Source: Dentipellis sp. KUC8613
Lineage: Eukaryota > Basidiomycota > Agaricomycetes > Russulales > Hericiaceae
Direction of reading: 5' to 3'
Assembly (NCBI GenBank): GCA_002286715.1
Contig: NSJX01000009.1
Span: forward strand, 621,966 to 685,965
DNA: 64,000 bases
Positions 23,384 through 63,269 of this stretch are shown here, one piece after another. The first letter of the stretch is position 1. Each line of letters starts with the position of its first letter. A program made the position numbers and the translations under genes. The notes under the pieces are model-generated. The model saw nothing but the letters and a program-made list of their open reading frames with translations. It was not told the DNA's origin and did no database searches.

Positions 23384-25152
23384 CTAACTAGACGAATCGT
23401 CGTCAAAAGATTCCTCCACAGAAGACCATCCATCTGACTCGGGATCGGGTTGGTTTTCTGCGTTCAACAAGCACACATCTGCGACAATAGCCAAGGATGT
23501 CACTTGCTCCGGCGCGATTGAGCAACTTCGAATAGTAAGCTTGATTCTTTCCATCCCGGGCTCTACAACCAGACGCAGTAGAATCCCAAACGCCAAAACA
23601 TACGCGTACTTGAGGTTTCCTGCTTCATTCATATGATCAAGCGATCCTCGAACGAGAGTGAGGTTCTGGATCATGGGGAAGATCGCAGGTGTTAAAGATG
23701 ATGCGATGAGTTGCGGTGTTTTGAACGCGTCTAGGAAACCATACACAAGGGCGTCCTCAACCTCGACGGATGTGATAAATTTCATCCCGCGAAATGTGCC
23801 CAACCAGCGTTCCTTCGAGAAGTCAAAAAAGCCTCCCGCGCGCAGGTTGCGAATAGGCTCTGGAGGGAATTGAGTACATATTGCCTGTACCAAGCGTGGG
23901 ACATCCCTGTCAAGAAATTCGAGTTCTGTAGGACAATGTATGGTGAAATCGTAGTGCGGGCGATTTTCCTGCTCATCCACATGGGTGTGGGTTCGGAGAC
24001 GATGCAGAGAAGAGCCGAGGCGGATGCGAACGCCATCGCGAGTAGTCTGACCAATGGTGAGGGAGGTCAAGTCTTCGAGTGATGAACGTGCACGTTTACA
24101 GCGCTCGCCGCAATATTTCTGAAGCATTTCAATTAGTCGGCTCTCTGACTGCATGAAGTCCGAAGGATAAGCTATTTGTATGAGATACAGTCGCAGATCC
24201 ACATCTGGAGGTGCCTCGAGGCAGCCCAGGAAATCTGCGCAAGCTTGGACGTCGTCGTTGAGCGATAGAAATTCTAGACAAGGTAAGGCTAGTTTTCTGC
24301 TGGCCGAGACATTGGGCGATGAAGCGACCGAATCGTTCAAGATCAACGTTCGCAGCTTGGGCATGCTGGCTAAAGCATCGAGAAGTTCGCTCGCAGTTGG
24401 CATGAGGGCGTACACATCGACTGAAAGGTCAAGGTATGTGATGTTGGCTAATGAAAGGGCCTCTCCCCAGGGAAGACTGCATCTGAAAAGCTGCAGACGT
24501 TGAAGCCGTGGGGAATTCCGGAAGAGCTGCGAAGGTAAGACACACCAGTTTGTATGGTAAGTGACTTTGAGACGCTCGAGGGACGACAGAGGATGTGAGA
24601 TGGCCAAGGAGGTGAATGTTTCGATAACACTGTCGGATTTCGGAGCGGTGAGCTCCTCCAACCTCATTTCTACGACGCGAGCGCTTTGAGAAAGGGCGAT
24701 TTCGGTAGCCTCTTGACACGCCAAAGAATCTTGAAGCGACACTGGATGTCCACTATTGGAGACAGTGATGGGGATGTTCTTAGAACGCTGAAGCATCTCC
24801 TTTGTGCATTCAGGATTGTGAATTGGAATGATCTCCCAGAAGCGAGAACATGAGATCGCCACCTCTCGCCATCGACGGCAAACTTGCGTTATGGAAAGCC
24901 ATGTCGGATGCCCCCGTGCGGGTTCCTCAAATGGAGAAGAGTCGGAATATGCTACATCTTGCCATGCACGGTATGAAAGGAAGATGTGTGCAAGGAGCTC
25001 GTTTGGTAGAAGACGTGTCGGATCTCGTCCACTTGGATCAACCAGCGTGCTTTTGTCAAGATTGCTGGCACGAAGGAAGCTTCATGAAGATGGGGTCTTT
25101 CAGTATTCTGTCCTATTGTGAGAGCTACGACGTTTGCGCACCTTGCTGCCAT
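23384..25152 (-). CDS. F-box/LRR-like protein with a tiny first coding exon
   Basis: Candidate substrate receptor of an SCF ubiquitin ligase. A long open frame on exon 25064-23384 contains, upstream of its first in-frame ATG, a canonical F-box: LLPNELLAHIFLSYRAW through ITQVCRRWREVAISCSRFW. No ATG precedes it in that exon. An 11-nt exon at 25152-25142 (ATGGCAGCAAG), a 77-nt intron with GTGCGC donor and CCAG acceptor, and the phase-2 join give the start MAASNLDKSTLVDPS and about 563 residues in total. The rest shows Leu-rich repeat-like segments (LERLKVTY, LQRLQLFRC, LANITYLDLS, LRTLILND). It is divergent from the gene at 25284, with only about 130 bp between the ATGs. Confidence 0.82.
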
Positions 25153-42636: not shown

Positions 42637-45600
42637 ATGGCTCTCTGGCGCAGACGCAAGCCAAACGCGTCGCAGTCTCCTCAAAGCGAGCCGGAGACTC
42701 CGCAGTCGGACGTCCCCACCCCAGACGAGACCGAACGGTCGAAGGAGGAGCTGTCGAAAGATGTGAGGGGGTTGAAGAAGAGGCTGAGCAAGGTATTCAA
42801 TTTGACGCTTGAATTAATGCAGCCTTGATCAACGGAAACAGTTGCAGTTGCAGCAACGTCGTTTCTACACGACGCGGAGGTTCCTGTTCCCTCTCGGCCT
42901 TGTTCGTGCGTGTTTCTCGCGTTATCTGGGAATCGAACGACCTTCAACGCGACAATAGTCGGACTCATGCTGGGCTTCACTCTTGTCGAGCCCTCCGATA
43001 TTCAGGATATATCTGGCCAAGTTGCGTTGCTCTGGAATGAGTACGATCTCTCGCTCTCATTCCCGCAGCTGCCCACTTTCGATCTATCCCGTGTTGAAGT
43101 GGAGTGGAAGAAGTTCACGAGCAATATCCCTGAGGTGTGGAAGCTCAGCAATGACGGGCGCGAATTCATGGTTGGCGAGGAAATGAAGGCACGGGGTCTG
43201 AGCGCGGAATACCCCGTCATCCTCGTGCCAGGAATTGTATCAACTGTAAGACTGTCCCAGCTACAGGCTTTGACGTATGCATCGAATCGTTGTTGATCTA
43301 TTTTCGCGCAGGGCTTGGAGTCGTGGTCGACAGACCCTGCGTACCGCCCCTTCTTCCGACAGAAAATGTGGGGCGGCTTTCACATGCTTTCGCAGGTCAC
43401 ATTCAATAGGGACAGGTGGATAACAGCACTCATGCTTGACCCTGTCACCGGCCTCGATCCACCAGGCATCAAAGTGCGAGCTGCGGAAGGGTTCGATGCC
43501 GCGAGCGTGTTCGTCCAAGGATACTGGATCTGGTAGGCGTCCTTCTGGATCTGGAACTACCCCTTTTGTGCTAGTCTGAAATAATATTTCGAAGGTCAAA
43601 GGTCATCGAGAATTTGGCCGTGGTGAATTATGACACGAACAATCTGCTCCTTGCGCCCTATGATTGGCGTCTGTCGTACAGCAATCTCGAAGTGCGCGAC
43701 GGATATTTCTCCCGACTGAAATCGCAGATCGAAGGTTTCAAGTACGGTGATATGTTTTTTTGATGGACTGCTTGAGCTGATATTGGTTCTCTTTACAGAC
43801 GAAGGCAAGGAAAGAAAACTGTAATCACAGCACATTCTATGGGGAGCAGTGTAAGCGATCGATACAGCCTCTGTATCAACATTCATTGACATCCTTCGGA
43901 ATCATCTAGGTCATGTTGGTAAGCGTCAATAGAATGTCTGAATGAAGCTCACCACAACTGATGTGCTTGCAGTATTTGTCAGTAGTCCTTCCTTTGAAAT
44001 TTGCTCCTTAGTTTGTGTACTTACCCAGACACTCGATCCTCGGCTTTGAACAGCTTCAAGTGGGTAGAATCACCACAGCACGGCGGAGGTGGACCCAACT
44101 GGGTCGAGGTGTGAATACACATTTGATATATTCGGCGGTCCGGCTCACCGGTATTCAACGATAGGACCACATCCACGCGTTCATCAGCATTGCCGGAACT
44201 CATCTGGTCAGTGAAATTCCTATAAACATGATATCTGTTTGCTGATATAGGATCTCTGCAGGGTGTAGTAAGCGTCATCGAAGTGATATCCATTTTTGCC
44301 GGGATCCTCTAATCATCTGCTATAGGCAAAAGCTATGGCAGCATTGCTATCGGGCGAAATGAAAGACACCGTCCAGATCAATCCCGCTGGCGCTTATGGT
44401 ATGCACGCAGCAGTTCGAAGTCAAAAAACCGCTTGTTTATCCCAATCTTTCACAGTCCTGGAACGCTTCTTCTCAAAAAAGGAGCGCCAAAAGCTGTTCC
44501 GCAGCTGGGCGGGCAGCGCCAGCATGTGGATCAAGGTAAGCCATATCCAATCTACCAATGACCTTCACACTAACGCTATTTTGCTATCACCACCACTAGG
44601 GTGGCGAAGCAATCTGGGGCAATGCCTCCTTCGCGCCAGACGACGAACCCGGCAGCTCGCTCACGCACGGCGAGCTGATCGCATTCCGCCGACGCGCCGC
44701 TTCGCCCCCGCCAGACAAGGAGGACACGGCGCCCATCCTGCGCGAGCTCGACGAGGCCGCGCACCCGTCGCCTGCGCCCGCGGGGAAAGTGCCGACTCAC
44801 GACGACGAGGTAGGTCGGGTTGAGCGGGACAGCAGTCTCGTGGAGACGCAGAATATGACCGCGGCGGAGGCGGGCGTGTGGATCTTGGAGCATACGCCGG
44901 CGACGTTCCAGGTGCGTGCTGTAGCGATTTCGTGTGGAGGTGCGGTGCGGTGCTGAGATGCGGGTGCAGAAAATGATTGAGACGAATTATTCGTATGGGA
45001 TTGAGCGGGATGAGAAGCAGCTGAAGAAGAATGATGCTGATCCGAGGACGTGGAGTAATCCGCTGGAGTCGAGGTGAGCTTCGACAGTTTTCCCCGGCAG
45101 ACTGCATACTAATACACTTCTGGCTTTGAAAGATTGCCCAACGCGCCTTCGATGGGCATATACTGCGTGTACGGCCACGGGAAGGAGACTGAGAGGTCAT
45201 ACTTGTCCGTATAGTTTTAAGACACTTCTCGTTGACTTCGCCTTTGGATGATTGTCTGATGCCCGATTTTCGTAGGTATGCCTCAGGCCCTTACGAGTAC
45301 GACGACACCACTGCCGATGCGGCGGGCGCCACATGCCCCGGCGGCGAAGACTGCGAGACGCCCCGACCACCACTGGACATGCCGTTCTCGCGTACGAGCT
45401 GGATAGACAGTGAATTCACGGACGAGACGATTACGCCCAAGGTGCGCATCATGCCGTTCATCTTAGATATTGATTTGCTGAGACGTCGGTACCTGGCAGA
45501 TACGAAACGGCGTGAAGATGGGAGAGGGCGACGGGACGGTGTCTCTGCTCAGCCTGGGTGCCATGTGCGCCGAGGGCTGGAAGAAGCCAAGGTACAACCC

Positions 45601-45871
45601 GGCTGGTATCCGTGTTGTCACAGTTGAAGTGCGCCTCCACCGCTCTTCTCATTGCTTGTCAAACGCTGACCGTGCGTATCTGCAGCTGCCGCACAGACCT
45701 GTTCCATCGATCCCGCGAGGTGGGGCGAACACGAGCGACCACGTCGATATTCTGGGCTCGACGGGGCTGAATGAGATTATATTGAAGGTAGCGACGGGTG
45801 TGGGGCATGAGGTGCAGGATAACTATGTCTCGAGGATTAGGGAGTATGTGAAGAAGATGCAGTGGGACTGA
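42637..45871 (+). CDS. LRO1: phospholipid:diacylglycerol acyltransferase (PDAT, Lro1-type)
   Basis: Predicted ER enzyme that moves an acyl chain from phospholipid to diacylglycerol, making triacylglycerol (LCAT/PDAT family). MALWRRRKPN is followed by a charged cytosolic segment and, after splicing 42792/42854 and 42905/42959, one transmembrane helix (FLFPLGLVLGLMLGFTLV). The lumenal part carries YPVILVPGIVSTGLESWST, the catalytic Ser in VITAHSMGSSVMLYFFKWVE, then GGGGPNWVE, LLSGEMKDT, GGEAIWGNASFAPDD, the Asp in GEGDGTVSLLSLG and the His in TSDHVDILGS. The region 43799-44300 needs exons of 9, 5 and 6 nt to read through. The gene has many introns, and a few junctions in the Asp region are approximate. 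The stop is TGA at 45869-45871. Confidence 0.9.
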
Positions 45872-46326: not shown

Positions 46327-48132
46327 TCAGGCGTTGGTATGCGATATAATCTCCATGTCAGCCTCTCCGTCCTCATCCTCAACGAAATCGGACGGCCAAT
46401 GCACACGATCATAATACCCCTCTTCCTTTAAATACGTGCGAAGCCCATCCATCTGCCTATCCCACACGGTGCCGATCGTGACGTGCCCAATGAACTGATC
46501 CATCTGTTCCTCGGTGATATCGCAGCACTCGACGAGGATGCGCATGAGCGCGCGCTCCGCGCCGTTGTGCTCCTGCCGGCGCTTCAGCCCGTCCAGCAGC
46601 GCGTGGTGCAGCTCGTGGCTGCCGACGAAATCGACCATCTCGAAGACGACGTTGCGCAGCGCGGGCATGAATGGCGCGGTCGGGATCTGCGAGGGCCGCT
46701 GCTGCGCCGTGAGCGTCTTGAAGTCGAGCACGGGGCCTTCGAGGTTCTTGAAGGTCTCGGCGAAGCCGTACAGCGGCATGCCGCTGATGCGGACGTCGCG
46801 AAGGTGCGGGAGGTGGCCGAAGGAGTACAGCCACTGCTCCGAGCCGAAGCAGAAGTCGCCCTCGAGCGAGAGCGTCTCGAGGCTCTGCAGCGGCAGCGCG
46901 TGGCACATGCCCAGGACGAAGACCTTGGTGACCTCGCTCGGGTGGTAGTGCAGCGTGAGCGAGACGTCGAAGTACGGCGACCACCGCCACACCCAGCTGT
47001 CGCAGCTGTCGAACGCGAACACGCCCTCGCCGACCTGCACGCGCAGGCCCGCGCCGCCGAGGTGCCGGATGCGCAGGCTGCGCACGGGCGGCGGCTTGCG
47101 GCAGACCGTCTTGCAGTTGCTGCAGGTCGCGACTTCCTTTGCGAGCATGGAGGTGAGCGCGACTGTGGCGATGATGGAGGGCAGGCAGTCGAGCTCGTCG
47201 ATGTCGTGCTTCATGGAGAATTTTGTCTTGGTCGTGCCGGGAAACGTGATCCGCCGGATGAAGTCGACGCAGTCTTGGACGATGGACTCAACCTCGATAA
47301 ATTTGAGCCCGGAAAGGTTGAGCGGCGGGCGCGCTAGGGCGGGCAGGGGTGAGACTTCGACCAGGCCCGACCTGGGCAGAACTCGAAAGAGGCGCAGCTC
47401 TTGGAGAGAAGGCATCCTTTCCAGCATATTCAGCAGCGTGTCCATGACTGGTCGCTTTTCTGAAGGAACCGGCCCGAGTGTCAGGTGAGTAAGTTGGTTA
47501 TGGAGGAGAGGCGATGTCCAGTTGAATTTGCACCACTTGATGGCAACCTGCTTGATGCGTGGGACTTGGCCCTTGAAGATATCGTCAGGCAAGTCGAGCC
47601 AAAAAGATCCTGCTCCACGGAGACTGAGAGTGAGTAGCTGGGGCGCCGGGCGTGCCGACAGGGCCGCGAGAAGGAGATCATTGTCTTCGTCTTCCCAGCG
47701 TGGGCCAATTAGGGTGAGATGGCGGATGCGCGGCATGAATTCCAAGGTCGAGAGAAGATTTGGGTATATGATGCCCTTTGAATCCTCGTGAAAGACGGCG
47801 TCGATGCTGAGAGGAGCCATTTTGACCCGCTGAAGCATGAGCTTGGTCCAGAGCGGCCATCGAAAGATGATGTTGCTCCATAGGGACGGGAAGCTGAGCG
47901 CAACCTCTCGCCAGCGATGGCATACGTGGGTGATGTACATCCATGTTCGTTCTGTAGGCAGAAGCGGGAGCCAAGGAGAAAGGTCACAAGGTGGAGTGCA
48001 CGAAAATATGATCGCCAAGACCTCGTCAGGTAGCCTGGATATCAACGCCCGAGAATTATGCAGGGTCTTTTGAGCAATCGTTGAGTAGATTTCCGAAGGA
48101 TGAACTACCAGATCTGTTGTGATAGATTCCAT
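46327..48132 (-). CDS. F-box protein, single exon
   Basis: An intronless 601-residue protein. The F-box is near residues 34-85: ISRLPDEVLAIIFSCTPP followed by MYITHVCHRWREVALSFPSLW. The remainder has irregular Leu-rich repeats (RIRHLTLIGP, LLTLSLRGAG, LTHLTLGP, LQELRLFRVL, LKFIEVESI). A CSNCKTVCRKPP stretch in the middle places three Cys close together. It is probably an SCF adaptor; the target is unknown. High GC makes long antisense frames appear across it, but the F-box and LRR pattern fixes the minus-strand reading. Confidence 0.86.
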   Translation of the reverse strand: MESITTDLVVHPSEIYSTIAQKTLHNSRALISRLPDEVLAIIFSCTPPCDLSPWLPLLPTERTWMYITHVCHRWREVALSFPSLWSNIIFRWPLWTKLMLQRVKMAPLSIDAVFHEDSKGIIYPNLLSTLEFMPRIRHLTLIGPRWEDEDNDLLLAALSARPAPQLLTLSLRGAGSFWLDLPDDIFKGQVPRIKQVAIKWCKFNWTSPLLHNQLTHLTLGPVPSEKRPVMDTLLNMLERMPSLQELRLFRVLPRSGLVEVSPLPALARPPLNLSGLKFIEVESIVQDCVDFIRRITFPGTTKTKFSMKHDIDELDCLPSIIATVALTSMLAKEVATCSNCKTVCRKPPPVRSLRIRHLGGAGLRVQVGEGVFAFDSCDSWVWRWSPYFDVSLTLHYHPSEVTKVFVLGMCHALPLQSLETLSLEGDFCFGSEQWLYSFGHLPHLRDVRISGMPLYGFAETFKNLEGPVLDFKTLTAQQRPSQIPTAPFMPALRNVVFEMVDFVGSHELHHALLDGLKRRQEHNGAERALMRILVECCDITEEQMDQFIGHVTIGTVWDRQMDGLRTYLKEEGYYDRVHWPSDFVEDEDGEADMEIISHTNA

Positions 48133-48630
48133 AGTCTGATTGAAAGTTCCAGTGGTTCAGATATATCAATATACTTCCCACGTGCAGTGAACTCACAAAT
48201 GGTGCAGTAAATGAGATATATCGTGTACCGGCGAACGGTGCAAGTTATCAGTGACGTTAGATATCGTAGAGTACCTGCAAAGACGTCATGACGCGATGAA
48301 ACAAATAAGGCGTTGCATTTAAACCTACCTGTTCGCAAGTTCTTTCGAGAGATTAGTGGGGATCACGAGAGGGGACAAGCAAAGGCGTTTACGACGACCG
48401 AGAGAACGACTTTCGGAATCGCGGCCGCAGCAGGCGCTTGTTTGCGGCAAGTCCAATGGGGTTAGGATCAGGAACGACCACGTGATTACCACTTTCGTAT
48501 TGTGGCCCGCGTAGGGCCCGAGTTCCACTCTTTTGTCTGTTACCTCCTGCACGACGTTCGGCATACGATGCTCATCATCCCTTCATAACGACCACCAAAG
48601 GCTCCTCTTTGACGCATTTAAAGTACAATC
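48133..48630. other. divergent promoter region (F-box / SNM1-type nuclease)
   Basis: 498 bp between divergent starts, with a CACGTG box at 48479-48484. No gene is seen. Confidence 0.55.
48479..48484. promoter_or_regulatory. CACGTG E-box upstream of SNM1-type gene
   Basis: CCACGTGAT lies about 150 bp upstream of the nuclease ATG, identical over nine bases to the element in front of the BRCT gene. Confidence 0.4.
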
Positions 48631-58641: not shown

Positions 58642-60327
58642 ATGGCTTTAGTCTATACAGCAGGTGCGCCCCGTTCCTCGCAGCTGACCGCAGCCGCGGC
58701 ACGGCGGACCGTCGCGGATGCCCTCAGGCTCTCTCGTCGTCGGCTGACTTGAACTAAAAATATTTATAGGACGCGCGGTGTACAAGAGCATCCAGAAGAG
58801 CAAGCAGAAGAAAACCGACAACAGGATGGTCGAAGAGGCCGTTGAAGTGAGACTGCCGGCGTTCACGCTGAACGATGGCACGCATATGCCCGCGATTGGA
58901 CTTGGGTGCGTGTCAGCGCTCGTGTGGGGGTGTGGAGGCTGATTTGGATGGATGGGTAGATGCTGGATGGGGGCTCCGGGTGGTGGAGAGAGGGTGAACG
59001 CTATGGTCGGCAAAGCGATTAGGGTATGTCGATCTGCAGGAATGGTAGCTTGTTTAGCTGATGGCGCCGATTATAGTTGGGATACAGGCATTTTGACACT
59101 GTAGGCGCTTTCAACTATACTAGGTGTTTCTGAGATGCTTAATACTTCGACTCCCTCCATCCAACAGGCTTCTGGATACGGTATATCTCCACGCGTACCG
59201 TCTATCGTCCATTGCTAACACTGCCTCCTACAGCAAACGAAGAGCAGCTTGGCGATGCCCTGTACCATGCCGGTATACCGAGGTCTCAGCTATACATTAC
59301 CACCAAGCTAGGGTGCGTACCTTTCCGTCATCCATGACACTGCATCTGAACCATAGGAATATCTGGCTCTATAGAAATCAAGATCACCACCGCGTCAGTC
59401 GGGCATTCGACGAATCCCTCCGCAGACTGAAGATGGACTACGTCGACATGTACCTCATGCACTGGCCACAGGCCGTTGACGACGATGGTCTTTACGCTTC
59501 CTCCACCTGTCTGCAGCAGCTTCTAACGCGTCTTCTTCAGGCAATGTGCTTCAGCCAGACCAGCACCCTACGATCATCGACACCTGGCGCGAGATGGAGA
59601 AGCTCGTGAAGAGCGGTACGCACCTACACACTCACCGTTCTCTTCCTACCCTAGCCTTACGCGCCCGCCAGGTCGCGCCAAATCCATCGGCGTGTCCAAC
59701 TTCTCCATCAAGCTCCTCCAACAGCTGCTCGCGCAGGCGGAGATCGTGCCGGCGACGAACCAGGTGGAGATGCACCCGTGTCTGCCGCAGAACGAGCTCA
59801 AGGCCTTCTGCGAGTCGAAGGACATCCTCCTCACTGCATACTCGCCCCTCGGTGCGTGCAGCTCTCTTACCTGTTCCGATCTTCGGGGAATAGCTGACAG
59901 GAATGTGCAGGTCGCCCGTTGCCCAAGGCCCAGCGCGGCGATCTGCCCGTGCTGCTGGACCACCCGACCGTGCGCGAGATCGCGAAGAACAACCAGGCTG
60001 CGCCGGGCCAGGTGCTGGTCAGCTGGGGCGTGCAGCGCCAGACGGTCGTGATACCGAAGAGCGAGGACGTGTCGCGCCTGAAGGCGAACATTACCGTCCG
60101 TGTCCCCTTCCCAATGCACTCGCGCGATTCCTTATGCTGACTCTCTGTCTGTGGTGTAGTTGGTGAAGCTGAGCGGTGCGGATATGCAGGCGCTCGATGC
60201 GATCCATCGCTCACCGGGGATGCACCGCTCGCTCTTGACGTACCATGGGCTTGATCCCGGCAGGGTGTTTGGGTGGACGTACGAGCAGATGGGCTGGGAT
60301 TACAAGCCGGGAGGGAAGATTGCCTGA
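58642..60327 (+). CDS. aldo-keto reductase (AKR superfamily)
   Basis: NAD(P)H-dependent carbonyl reductase. Eleven exons (58642-58663, 58770-58905, 58960-59023, 59077-59100, 59168-59180, 59234-59312, 59375-59487, 59541-59615, 59672-59851, 59911-60095, 60160-60327) total 1,059 nt, 352 residues. The catalytic tetrad is Asp in GYRHFDTASGY, Tyr in SGYANEEQLG, Lys in ITTKLG and His in YLMHWPQA. Cofactor and barrel motifs are KSIGVSNFS, NQVEMHPCLPQ, TAYSPLGRPLP and VVIPKS. The Asp and Tyr sit on exons of 24 and 13 nt. An N-terminal extension (VYKSIQKSKQKKTDNRMVEE) precedes the barrel. The substrate cannot be told from sequence. The nearest neighbour is an F-box gene converging from the right. Confidence 0.9.
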
Positions 60328-60540: not shown

Positions 60541-62721
60541 CTAAGCTGCGGGCGCTTCATCAGGGGGTAGTGCGGAATAGCGAGGGGCGCGAGATCCTTC
60601 GCGAGACGCCGATTTCTGATGCGCGAGCACCGGGACGACCTGCTGCAGATTCTCGACCCACGAATAGTGCGGAAAACCCGGGTGCGACCGCACGATATAC
60701 AGCTTCTTCAACGGGAAGCCCATCTCCTTGCGAGAACGGAGCTTCGGGACGAGTATGTCTCCGAAGAACGTCTGGCTGACAGAATAGACTTTGCTCAGGA
60801 TACCCTCTGGCACGGAGACAGCTTCGAGGCCACGTAAGAAGATATCGTCGCTGTCGGACGCAGCTGGTGGTGATGAGTTCTGCCGAGCCAGTGCTCCGAA
60901 GACCATCTGTGTGCTGCTGTCTCCGCAGTCGAGGCTGCGGACGCTGTCCCACCCTTGAAGTGCGCGGGCAAGCGGCCGGCCCGACGATGGCGCACCGAAC
61001 TGCGGTAGCTCCAGTGAGAGCGTGGATACATTGGCCGGGGGTATAGCAGACAGAATGTGACGGAGTTTGGTCATGAAGGCTGCTTCCTCCATTTTCGGCC
61101 GGGGCCCTTCCCTCAAATCGAGAGTGAAGTCGAAGGACGGTTCCGATTCCGGCTGGAAGATGGGGTATCCGTCGCCGGCGACACGCAGTACTGACCACCC
61201 TTTCATCGTGAGCCACGGGTGCTGGCCCATCTGCAGCACGCAGACCCTCACTGTCTGGATAGGACGGGAAGGGACGTCGACGGCGATCGAGGACTTCTTG
61301 AGCATCTGTGACAGTAGCTCATAGTTCCTCTGCATGTTCTGGTCCGAGGAATTGAGGACCTTGAGCTTGAGCGACGTGCATGCGGGCGCAGCCAGATGTC
61401 CTAAGAGGTCGGCGGCGGGCCAGGCGCGGTCATCAATCGATAGTCTTTGTAGGTTGACCATGTGTATGACAGGTCGATTGTCGGATAGCTCTGGGGGAAA
61501 TGCGTGAGAGGGTATGCAGCCTCCGAGAACAAGCGCCTCCAGAGAAGGAAGCCCAGCCAGGCAGTCGTAGAATTTGTCGCGTTGTGTTGCAGGGGGCTGG
61601 GCTTGTGACGGCCCGCGGACACGGGCCTTCAAAGGAATAACAACTTCGAGGTGAACGATGGAGGCGCTGAGGAGTGGAGAGCTCCAGTCCATCGCATAGT
61701 TGTATAAGGAGATCCGGCGTAGTTTTGGTGCCTGAGCGGCAAGAAAGTTTGAAGGTAATGAGCATGAGTTGCCCATTAAAGCCCAGTCACCGTGAGACTC
61801 GGGAACTCTCTGCGCCAGGAACAGCGTCTCTAGGTTATCGGCGGGTGCATTGAACGTTTCGTGCGCGCCCTGGATAGACTCGGGCTCGCCGCGGAGATAG
61901 AGGCCGAGCTCCTTGATCCGCGCTATATGTTGCGCTAGAAGGGGAGGTTCGTAGGATGAGTGGACCGCCCGTGTAACGGTCAAGGGAAGGGACTTCGACC
62001 GAAACAGTGCTGCTTTCATGGTGGAGGTGCCGAGTCCGTCTGTGATGTTTGTCCAGCACGAAGGGTCCCCAAGTACGACATTCCGCCAATGTTGACAGAC
62101 AGACATAAGCTGATATCTGTTGTAGCCATCGCGACGTGCAGTCTCGAAGCTTGACATCACGCTTCCTGTATGCCAGAGAAGTGGTTTTCCTTGTATTGCG
62201 AGGTTAAAGATGCGAGCCAGGATCTCTGGTGGAAGACGGTGAATTCGACATATCAGGCGATTGTGGTGCGAGAGTATGGTCAAGATGATTTTTTGGAGAG
62301 CGGAGATGTCGTCGTTCATGAGACGACGGGCGGCCGCGATGGCGGACTTGTCACTGTCCGAAGCAAGCTTTTCGACAGCAGCGAATCGGGCTCGAAAGAC
62401 GTCTTCGTAACCTAATGTGCTGTCTGCGATATCTTGATCAAGGGCCGGCTCAGGGCAGCCAGAAGATGTCGCGGGTGGGAGTAGTTCTCCCTGTGTCGTA
62501 TCAAACGGCGGTGTGCTATCATAATCACGGTGAATGTAGTTGAGATCGATTCGCATGGGCACCGTGCTCGTACCATTCCGAGTATTCCAAATCGCTCTCC
62601 TCCATCTTAGGCGCGCTAACGGGGCAGGCCGGGGATAAGAGCCGTAGGCAAATGTCTGTGGGAGTAGTGGTGACTGCAAGAGGAGTGGCGAACGCGCAGA
62701 AGCGCTGAGACCTCGAGGCAA
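60541..62721 (-). CDS. F-box protein with long N-terminal extension
   Basis: A single-exon 726-residue frame. The F-box is near residues 160-225: RIHRLPPEILARIFNLAIQG and YQLMSVCQHWRNVVLGDPSCWTNI. It is preceded by a helical, Ala-rich segment (EDVFRARFAAVEKLASDSDK) common upstream of F-boxes in Agaricomycete expansions. Leu-rich segments follow (ELGLYLRGEP, LETLFLAQRV, LRRISLYNYA, LEALVLGGCI). The first 60 residues are Arg/Pro-rich and may not be translated; an in-frame Met at TSTVPMRIDLNYIH is an alternative start. Probably an SCF adaptor of unknown target. Confidence 0.84.
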   Translation of the reverse strand: MPRGLSASARSPLLLQSPLLPQTFAYGSYPRPAPLARLRWRRAIWNTRNGTSTVPMRIDLNYIHRDYDSTPPFDTTQGELLPPATSSGCPEPALDQDIADSTLGYEDVFRARFAAVEKLASDSDKSAIAAARRLMNDDISALQKIILTILSHHNRLICRIHRLPPEILARIFNLAIQGKPLLWHTGSVMSSFETARRDGYNRYQLMSVCQHWRNVVLGDPSCWTNITDGLGTSTMKAALFRSKSLPLTVTRAVHSSYEPPLLAQHIARIKELGLYLRGEPESIQGAHETFNAPADNLETLFLAQRVPESHGDWALMGNSCSLPSNFLAAQAPKLRRISLYNYAMDWSSPLLSASIVHLEVVIPLKARVRGPSQAQPPATQRDKFYDCLAGLPSLEALVLGGCIPSHAFPPELSDNRPVIHMVNLQRLSIDDRAWPAADLLGHLAAPACTSLKLKVLNSSDQNMQRNYELLSQMLKKSSIAVDVPSRPIQTVRVCVLQMGQHPWLTMKGWSVLRVAGDGYPIFQPESEPSFDFTLDLREGPRPKMEEAAFMTKLRHILSAIPPANVSTLSLELPQFGAPSSGRPLARALQGWDSVRSLDCGDSSTQMVFGALARQNSSPPAASDSDDIFLRGLEAVSVPEGILSKVYSVSQTFFGDILVPKLRSRKEMGFPLKKLYIVRSHPGFPHYSWVENLQQVVPVLAHQKSASREGSRAPRYSALPPDEAPAA

Positions 62722-63269
62722 GAGAGCGTGGGTTGCGGGCTTTTCCGATATTGACCCTACTACCAGCTAAGCGTTACGAGCGCAGCTAGCGAAATGCCGA
62801 GCCCTCAGGACTTCTAGCACAAGTGCAAGCGTGAGGCATCCTTCAAGGATTATCGAAGCATGCTACCGAGTTCGACCTAGCGATCTAGAATTCTTCAACA
62901 TGGCGGAGTGAGTCTCGTGAGCGATTAGAAAAATTAGACTCAACAATCGACCAGAATCTGGCAGATACGGTAGATACCAAATGGTTTCCAGGCATTTTGG
63001 GCGCCCAGAAAGTAATTGATACCGAAAGATGTGCGATGTCTAGAGGACGGCAGGGACCGGAGCACATGTGCCAGTACTCGGGCGAAACTCCGACTCACCT
63101 CCGAGTCGCCTTGAACCGCGATCCACCAAGTTCGAGGTACCCCATGCAACATTGTCTACCTCACGTCTAATTCACAGGCCTCCGAGTATGATCGCGTTGG
63201 AGAGATATGGTCCCCTCATCTCACGGACGAATCTCCCCAAATCTCGCGTTCTCCGCGGGTCACCCTCAT
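62722..63269. other. intergenic region
   Basis: This lies upstream of the F-box gene. Only weak short frames occur, and none is supported. Confidence 0.4.

Follow-up and report, generated by a model that had tools for sequence, protein, structure and literature searches.

The PDAT/LRO1-type gene on the forward strand of the window (the whole stretch of 64,000 nt of DNA analyzed here, from the wood-rot fungus Dentipellis sp. KUC8613) contains three microexons (internal exons of at most 15 nt) of 9, 5, and 6 nt at its catalytic core. From the DNA sequence, the exon borders, the reading frame, and homology we infer, with high confidence, that the mRNA of this species includes all three constitutively, that the introns flanking them are recognized by intron definition, and that neighboring introns are removed in turn. 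The trio fits within 360 nt, two of its members (exons 7 and 8) are adjacent, and each is bordered by AG and GT and required either by the reading frame or by homology.

The gene occupies positions 42637-45871 (+) and consists of 19 exons that join into an open frame of 719 codons plus a stop. Exons 1 to 10 measure 156, 58, 287, 221, 147, 52, 9, 5, 55, and 42 nt, and exons 11 to 19 measure 6, 73, 80, 312, 104, 72, 166, 129, and 186 nt. All 18 introns are GT-AG introns of 53-76 nt, for a total of 1,075 nt. An earlier 716-aa model with a different intron 16 donor was dropped because relatives favor donor 45205, which gives the final 719 aa; the protein search was run with the 716-aa draft. The LCAT family profile PF02450 matches the gene product with 274.1 bits (E 2.9e-81; curated cut-off 21), bearing out the PDAT identity proposed in the first-pass annotation. 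The product contains HSMG, GDGTV, and DHVDILG, and H297, S298, M299, G300, D623, and H674 (Hericium numbering) are invariant across 34 aligned intact proteins; we take the HSMG serine elbow and the conserved Asp and His to be catalytic. A protein of Hericium alpestre is 75% identical across the entire 716-aa query, and many of the best 120 of 903 relatives are given the PDAT name by their sources. The gene product is a PDAT/LRO1, with acyl transfer from phospholipid to diacylglycerol as the activity predicted from its sequence. PDAT converts membrane lipid into storage fat. We searched the genome (34.1 Mb, 171 contigs, with the window at 621966-685965 of C161) for copies, and no paralogue with other introns was found: all 15 genome matches listed for the PDAT protein fall in the gene at 42637-45871.

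Elsewhere in the window, three open reading frames with matches to the 2OG-Fe(II) oxygenase profile PF13640 (31820-32785, 33649-34632, and 36016-36939, all +) likely form a tandem family, the match of the first being just below the curated cut-off. F-box-like matches occur in three long open reading frames on the reverse strand (23390-25081, 46333-48156, and 60547-62766), only that in 46333-48156 being above the curated cut-off; the frame at 23390-25081 additionally has a weak leucine-rich repeat match. An open reading frame fragment at 59527-60045 (+) matches the aldo/keto reductase family (PF00248).

The first two microexons follow exon 6 (43799-43850, +; 52 nt), which ends in HSMGSS and carries the nucleophile elbow HSMG. 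After intron 6 (43851-43909, +; 59 nt), microexon 7 (43910-43918, +) contributes the 9 nt GTCATGTTG between CTAG and GTAAGC and encodes residues 308-310 (VML). It is separated by intron 7 (43919-43972, +; 54 nt) from microexon 8 (43973-43977, +), the 5 nt TATTT between GCAG and GTCAGT, which encodes residues 311-312 (YF), the second of these codons (F312) being completed by the first base of exon 9. Intron 8 (43978-44053, +; 76 nt), which contains an early AG ending at 44028, leads to exon 9 (44054-44108, +; 55 nt), opening with the last base of F312 and continuing through FKWVESPQHGGGGPNWVE. The third microexon lies between exon 10 (44165-44206, +; 42 nt; DHIHAFISIAGTHL) with intron 10 (44207-44261, +; 55 nt) and intron 11 (44268-44325, +; 58 nt) with exon 12 (44326-44398, +; 73 nt; AKAMAALLSGEMKDTVQINPAGAY plus the first base of the next codon). 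This microexon 11 (44262-44267, +) is the 6 nt GGTGTA between CTGCAG and GTAAGC and encodes residues 345-346 (GV). Every coordinate that the first-pass annotation had given for the HSMGSS exon, the three microexons, and the exon starting at 44054 is exact, and the AG and GT borders and the intron lengths of 54-76 nt that it had described hold for all five introns.

Reading frame and homology contribute differently to these assignments. Exon 6 ends in phase 0 and exon 9 opens with the third base of a codon, so the number of bases between them must leave a remainder of two on division by three, which the 14 bases of the 9-nt and 5-nt exons do. The 5-nt exon 8 is thus obligatory for the reading frame. 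The VML and GV exons are frame-neutral, so the need for them comes from homology. Two variants, a 17-nt exon 11 and a 9-nt exon 8, were ruled out because either breaks the frame.

The relatives available for comparison were the best 120 of 903 proteins over the threshold, in a collection clustered at 90% identity. We set apart as transcript-like the 18 whose only source was lgn (17) or jgi (1), where lgn presumably denotes assemblies of public reads. Beyond the open reading frame, the contigs of 13 of these 18 extend less than 1,075 nt, the intron total of the present gene, and those of eight no more than about 235 nt. Contigs too short to hold 1,075 nt of introns look like spliced RNA; the other five are longer and thus uninformative by length. 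Seven of the eight shortest look Suillus-like and hence are not independent. All 18 proteins have VxxYF or IxxYF, and all 18 have GV, with the strict GV pattern in 17 and GSHLGV in the eighteenth (P0048).

We then aligned the DNA with a profile of these 18 proteins, with very short exons permitted and GT-AG introns admitted from 40 nt upward. The borders described above were the best path at both sites with intron penalties of 4, 6, 8, 10, and 12 bits. The claim that the 9-nt and 5-nt exons are needed to recover VMLYF thus held up, the profile-guided path having the same borders and the 14 bases meeting the frame; GGTGTA, which had been called necessary for Gly-Val, is likewise included in the spliced alignment, with homology as its sole ground. 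As controls, the DNA between the flanking exons was swapped, with six bases kept at each end, for first-order Markov sequence or for other stretches of the window. With shorter flanks, 3 of 12,000 Markov controls (best 67.1) and none of 12,000 controls from other stretches of the window (best 62.6) attained the real score of the first site (63.2). The score of the second site (51.3) was reached in 5 of 12,000 and 8 of 12,000, respectively; these controls tie it to one decimal and none exceeds it (best 51.3 and 51.3). In a smaller run with longer flanks, the real scores were reached in 0 of 600 controls in each of four settings.

Solved structures provide an independent comparison. The group XV phospholipase A2 structure (4x90) aligns without gaps through HSMGNMYTLYF and GGVAK. 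LCAT (4xx1) aligns without gaps through HSLGCLHLLYF and has Gly-Ser at the position of Gly-Val in the PDAT gene. A structure was also predicted for the Hericium protein together with 33 relatives and used around residues 291-320 only, since the model is poor overall (mean pLDDT 54.1, with GV in a stretch below 50). In this region it has a strand at 292-297, the HSMG turn, and a helix at 299-312 that holds VILYF, with block pLDDT values of 84 (291-300) and 78 (301-310). VML-YF is the start of the helix after the catalytic serine, and GV is the pair just past THL.

The other 102 of the 120 proteins were taken as genome models, although two of them also carry the source lgn. VMLYF is intact in 40 of the 102 and not in 62, against 18 of 18 in the transcript-like set (Fisher 4e-7, a value that ignores kinship and serves as a guide only). 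The 62 comprise exact losses of VML (11), losses of four or five residues (9), VxL followed by V (8), garbled sequence (24), and larger losses (10). The eight with VxL and then V look as if the model had continued past a donor GT after the third residue. GV is kept in 79 models, 75 with the strict pattern and four with a changed neighbor (P0044, P0045, P0058, and P0069); the remaining 23 have exact losses (16) or other differences (7). The strict GV contrast is not significant by itself (75 of 102 against 17 of 18; Fisher 0.07). Mean disagreement in exons 7, 8, and 11 is 34%, 34%, and 20%, respectively, in genome models and 2%, 0%, and 0% in the transcript-like set.

These differences concentrate at the microexons. 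The transcript-like set is free of disagreement in 414 columns, of which seven are off in more than 20% of genome models: V308, M309, Y311, F312, and G345, together with R139 and D175, which are substitutions without gaps. Gap runs shared by at least three models outside exon 14 fall at the microexon sites at residues 308-310 (11 models), 309-312 (8), 345-346 (16), and 291-312 (3), and elsewhere at residues 12-53, 103-107, 554-556 (3), and 588-590. Mean gaps in exons 1-3 are 21%, 5%, and 3% in the transcript-like set and 21%, 11%, and 4% in genome models; because the transcript-like set is gapped there too, most gaps in these exons are real length differences.

The protein deposited for Dentipellis sp. 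KUC8613 (P0001), which is the best match to the gene product in the protein search, differs at the same places. Compared letter by letter, it starts at residue 75, has VMLYF replaced, lacks GV, and has exon 14 without 23 residues; outside these regions it is identical to our product. A single intron at 43873-44028 in the window DNA translates to its odd segment, letter for letter. If the deposited model were correct, this 156-nt intron would give SSVSDRYSLYTRSSALNS-FKWVES and a 119-nt intron would join THL to AKAM, both with open translation, and its acceptor has an ordinary score of 2.8, higher than that of the intron 6 acceptor in the microexon model. Its donor, at -2.3, scores below all 18 donors of the microexon model (lowest 0.6), its AG ends 5 nt past a CTTAC branch-like site, and its introns of 156 and 119 nt exceed all 18 others (53-76 nt). 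It would also remove residues that are kept in 18 of 18 transcript-like relatives and aligned in the solved phospholipase A2. We find the deposited splicing scarcely credible and retain the microexon model. The first-pass annotation had held such exons to be missed by most gene finders. They are often missed, with 62 of 102 models not intact at VMLYF and all three garbled or lacking in the deposited protein, but "most" goes too far, since VMLYF is intact in 40 of 102 and GV is kept in 79 of 102.

Other features of this region of the deposited protein and the DNA were recorded alongside. The part absent from the N-terminus of P0001 is basic and hydrophobic (42637-43020), and it is present in the Hericium protein. 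The 23 absent residues fall within exon 14 (44600-44911). The end of intron 8 (44020-44053) carries CTTACCCAG, in which the AG ending at 44028, the one that the deposited model implies, lies 25 bases before the intron end and five bases past the branch-like A.

The splice signals were scored with a matrix built from only 13 introns. With this matrix, introns 7, 10, and 11 have both donor and acceptor in the top 6% relative to decoys. The intron 8 signals are middling, its donor being matched by 46 of 167 decoys and its acceptor by 35 of 185, and the intron 6 acceptor is weak (-0.2, with 113 of 185 decoys as good). YTNAY branch-like sites lie 11-30 nt from the ends of introns 6, 7, 8, 10, and 11; the pattern is rough, as it was not found in 3 of the 13 other introns of the gene.

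How such exons might be spliced follows from the length of their introns. Each flanking intron of 54-76 nt would be recognized as a unit, with U1 at its 5' end pairing with U2AF/U2 at the first branch point and AG downstream. Under such intron-wise pairing, exon length would be of little account and a very short exon no obstacle. A review ties the efficiency of intron definition to intron length rather than exon length (PMC8624252), and in C. elegans a short flanking intron lifts the special PRP-40 need of a microexon, in a model that its authors call speculative (PMC8378409). The first-pass view that these exons challenge even intron-definition splicing is therefore not favored by what those sources say. 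A steric limit remains, because two complexes would hardly fit on an exon of 5-9 nt at once; splice sites this close cannot be jointly occupied, so neighboring introns are probably removed sequentially. Authors working on plants similarly argue that there is no room for both complexes on a microexon and that competition arises between its two introns (PMC8831610).

The microexons could instead be real but optional, with skipping of the 9-nt or 6-nt exon giving an altered or inactive second PDAT that tunes the enzyme. Both of these exons are multiples of three, so that either could be skipped alone in frame, and regulated fungal microexons are described in Trichoderma (PMC11121469) and mentioned in passing for Tuber (PMC4986451). 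Such skipping would require pairing across 119 to 203 nt, which exceeds every intron of the gene, and the short introns favor pairing across each intron (PMC8624252, PMC8378409). The 5-nt exon, moreover, is not skippable alone in frame. All 18 transcript-like relatives include the residues, although clustering at 90% could hide skipped isoforms. On this evidence we judge optional use very improbable and continue with constitutive inclusion.

The relatives also bear on the age of the borders. Exact VML losses occur in models from Armillaria (2), Desarmillaria, Pluteus, Rhodocollybia, Ganoderma, Earliella, Dichomitus, Polyporus, Daedaleopsis, and Amylostereum. Exact GV losses occur in Dentipellis, Stereum, Amylostereum, Vararia, Amanita (2), Hypholoma, Crassisporium, Desarmillaria, Rhodocollybia, Ganoderma, Earliella, Polyporus, Daedaleopsis, Sparassis, and Suillus placidus. 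Together they span Agaricales, Polyporales, Russulales, and Boletales, where orders were looked up for Dentipellis (Russulales, Hericiaceae), Amylostereum, Dichomitus, Armillaria, Suillus, and Rickenella and the other genera are placed by their usual classification. When errors in models from several orders halt at one and the same codon, shared intron positions are the best explanation. The trio is therefore probably old, and, as judged from these protein models, its borders are probably common to Agaricomycetes. One scan of viral contigs and one of bacterial and archaeal contigs turned up no DNA from a relative. The 40 models intact at VMLYF and the 79 with GV may come from relatives without these introns or from better annotation.

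The borders could also have arisen recently in this lineage alone, for instance through fresh intron insertions (introners), with the gaps in relatives having other causes. The 40 of 102 genome models intact at VMLYF agree with this, and the relatives were compared at the protein level. The spread of exact VML and GV gaps over the models of several orders speaks against it. An introner origin was rejected: 43851-44053 and 44207-44325 match only themselves in a genome search with E values up to 10 (very common words skipped), with no second copy, and the most similar of the 18 introns (5 and 10; score 24) are equalled in 45 of 500 shuffles, so that intron similarity is not clearly above shuffles (maximum of 25 in a run of 40). 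We consider recent borders quite unlikely. Returning to an old trio, we lean modestly toward its fullest form, in which the 9-5-6 set would be ancient at the same borders across Agaricomycetes, its splicing order obligatory because the sites are too close, and the majority of deposited models corrupted at the catalytic core.

Deposited PDAT sequences serve mushroom annotation, phylogeny, and cloning, and 62 of the 102 genome-model relatives examined carry damage a few residues from the catalytic serine. A spliced aligner that uses homology and allows tiny exons would avoid such damage, and, if the borders are class-wide, the trio would be a clean marker for quality control of gene models. With its short introns, no paralogue found, one exon obligatory by frame, and two not, the gene further offers a compact natural test for the splicing of consecutive exons of 5-9 nt.

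Very short exons as a kind are already known in basidiomycetes, and the rarity implied by the first-pass annotation was overstated, exons of such size being recorded in Phanerochaete, Phlebia, and Laccaria. The P450 genes of the white-rot basidiomycete Phanerochaete chrysosporium resemble the present case in having introns of 45-55 bp and exons down to 6 bp, with microexons that code for 2-10 residues in many genes (PMC1184071). They form a multigene family, whereas PDAT is single-copy and has three microexons in 360 nt, two of them adjacent. Annotation is reported to be hard in Phlebia radiata, with exons as short as two nucleotides (PMC6540522), and in a Laccaria bicolor paper, which describes exons of fewer than 10 codons as frequent in basidiomycetes (PMC2897884); the passages at hand give these as general features and trace no conserved set in one gene across relatives. 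Codon-sized exons in Tuber are mentioned in passing (PMC4986451).

Closer in kind is Fusarium CYP621A, where a 1-nt exon in a conserved motif was first inferred from phase and homology and only one of the deposited transcripts listed has it right (PMC12940212). CYP621A has one such exon, in an ascomycete genus, confirmed with RNA reads in two species, whereas PDAT has three, probably class-wide, known from DNA and homology. Among the literature matches listed, and for those matches only, none describes PDAT microexons or a class-wide fungal microexon set. As far as our searches went, what is new is the gene, the presence of three microexons in 360 nt of a catalytic core, and an indication that the same borders disrupt models class-wide. 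The conserved microexons of plants are likewise small coding exons kept over deep time and pervasively misannotated; they are mostly in major isoforms, and competition between flanking introns has been proposed for them (PMC8831610). That set is described in plants, whereas the PDAT trio is in a fungus, and an ancient 9-5-6 trio, if true, would be a fungal counterpart of the conserved plant microexon sets.
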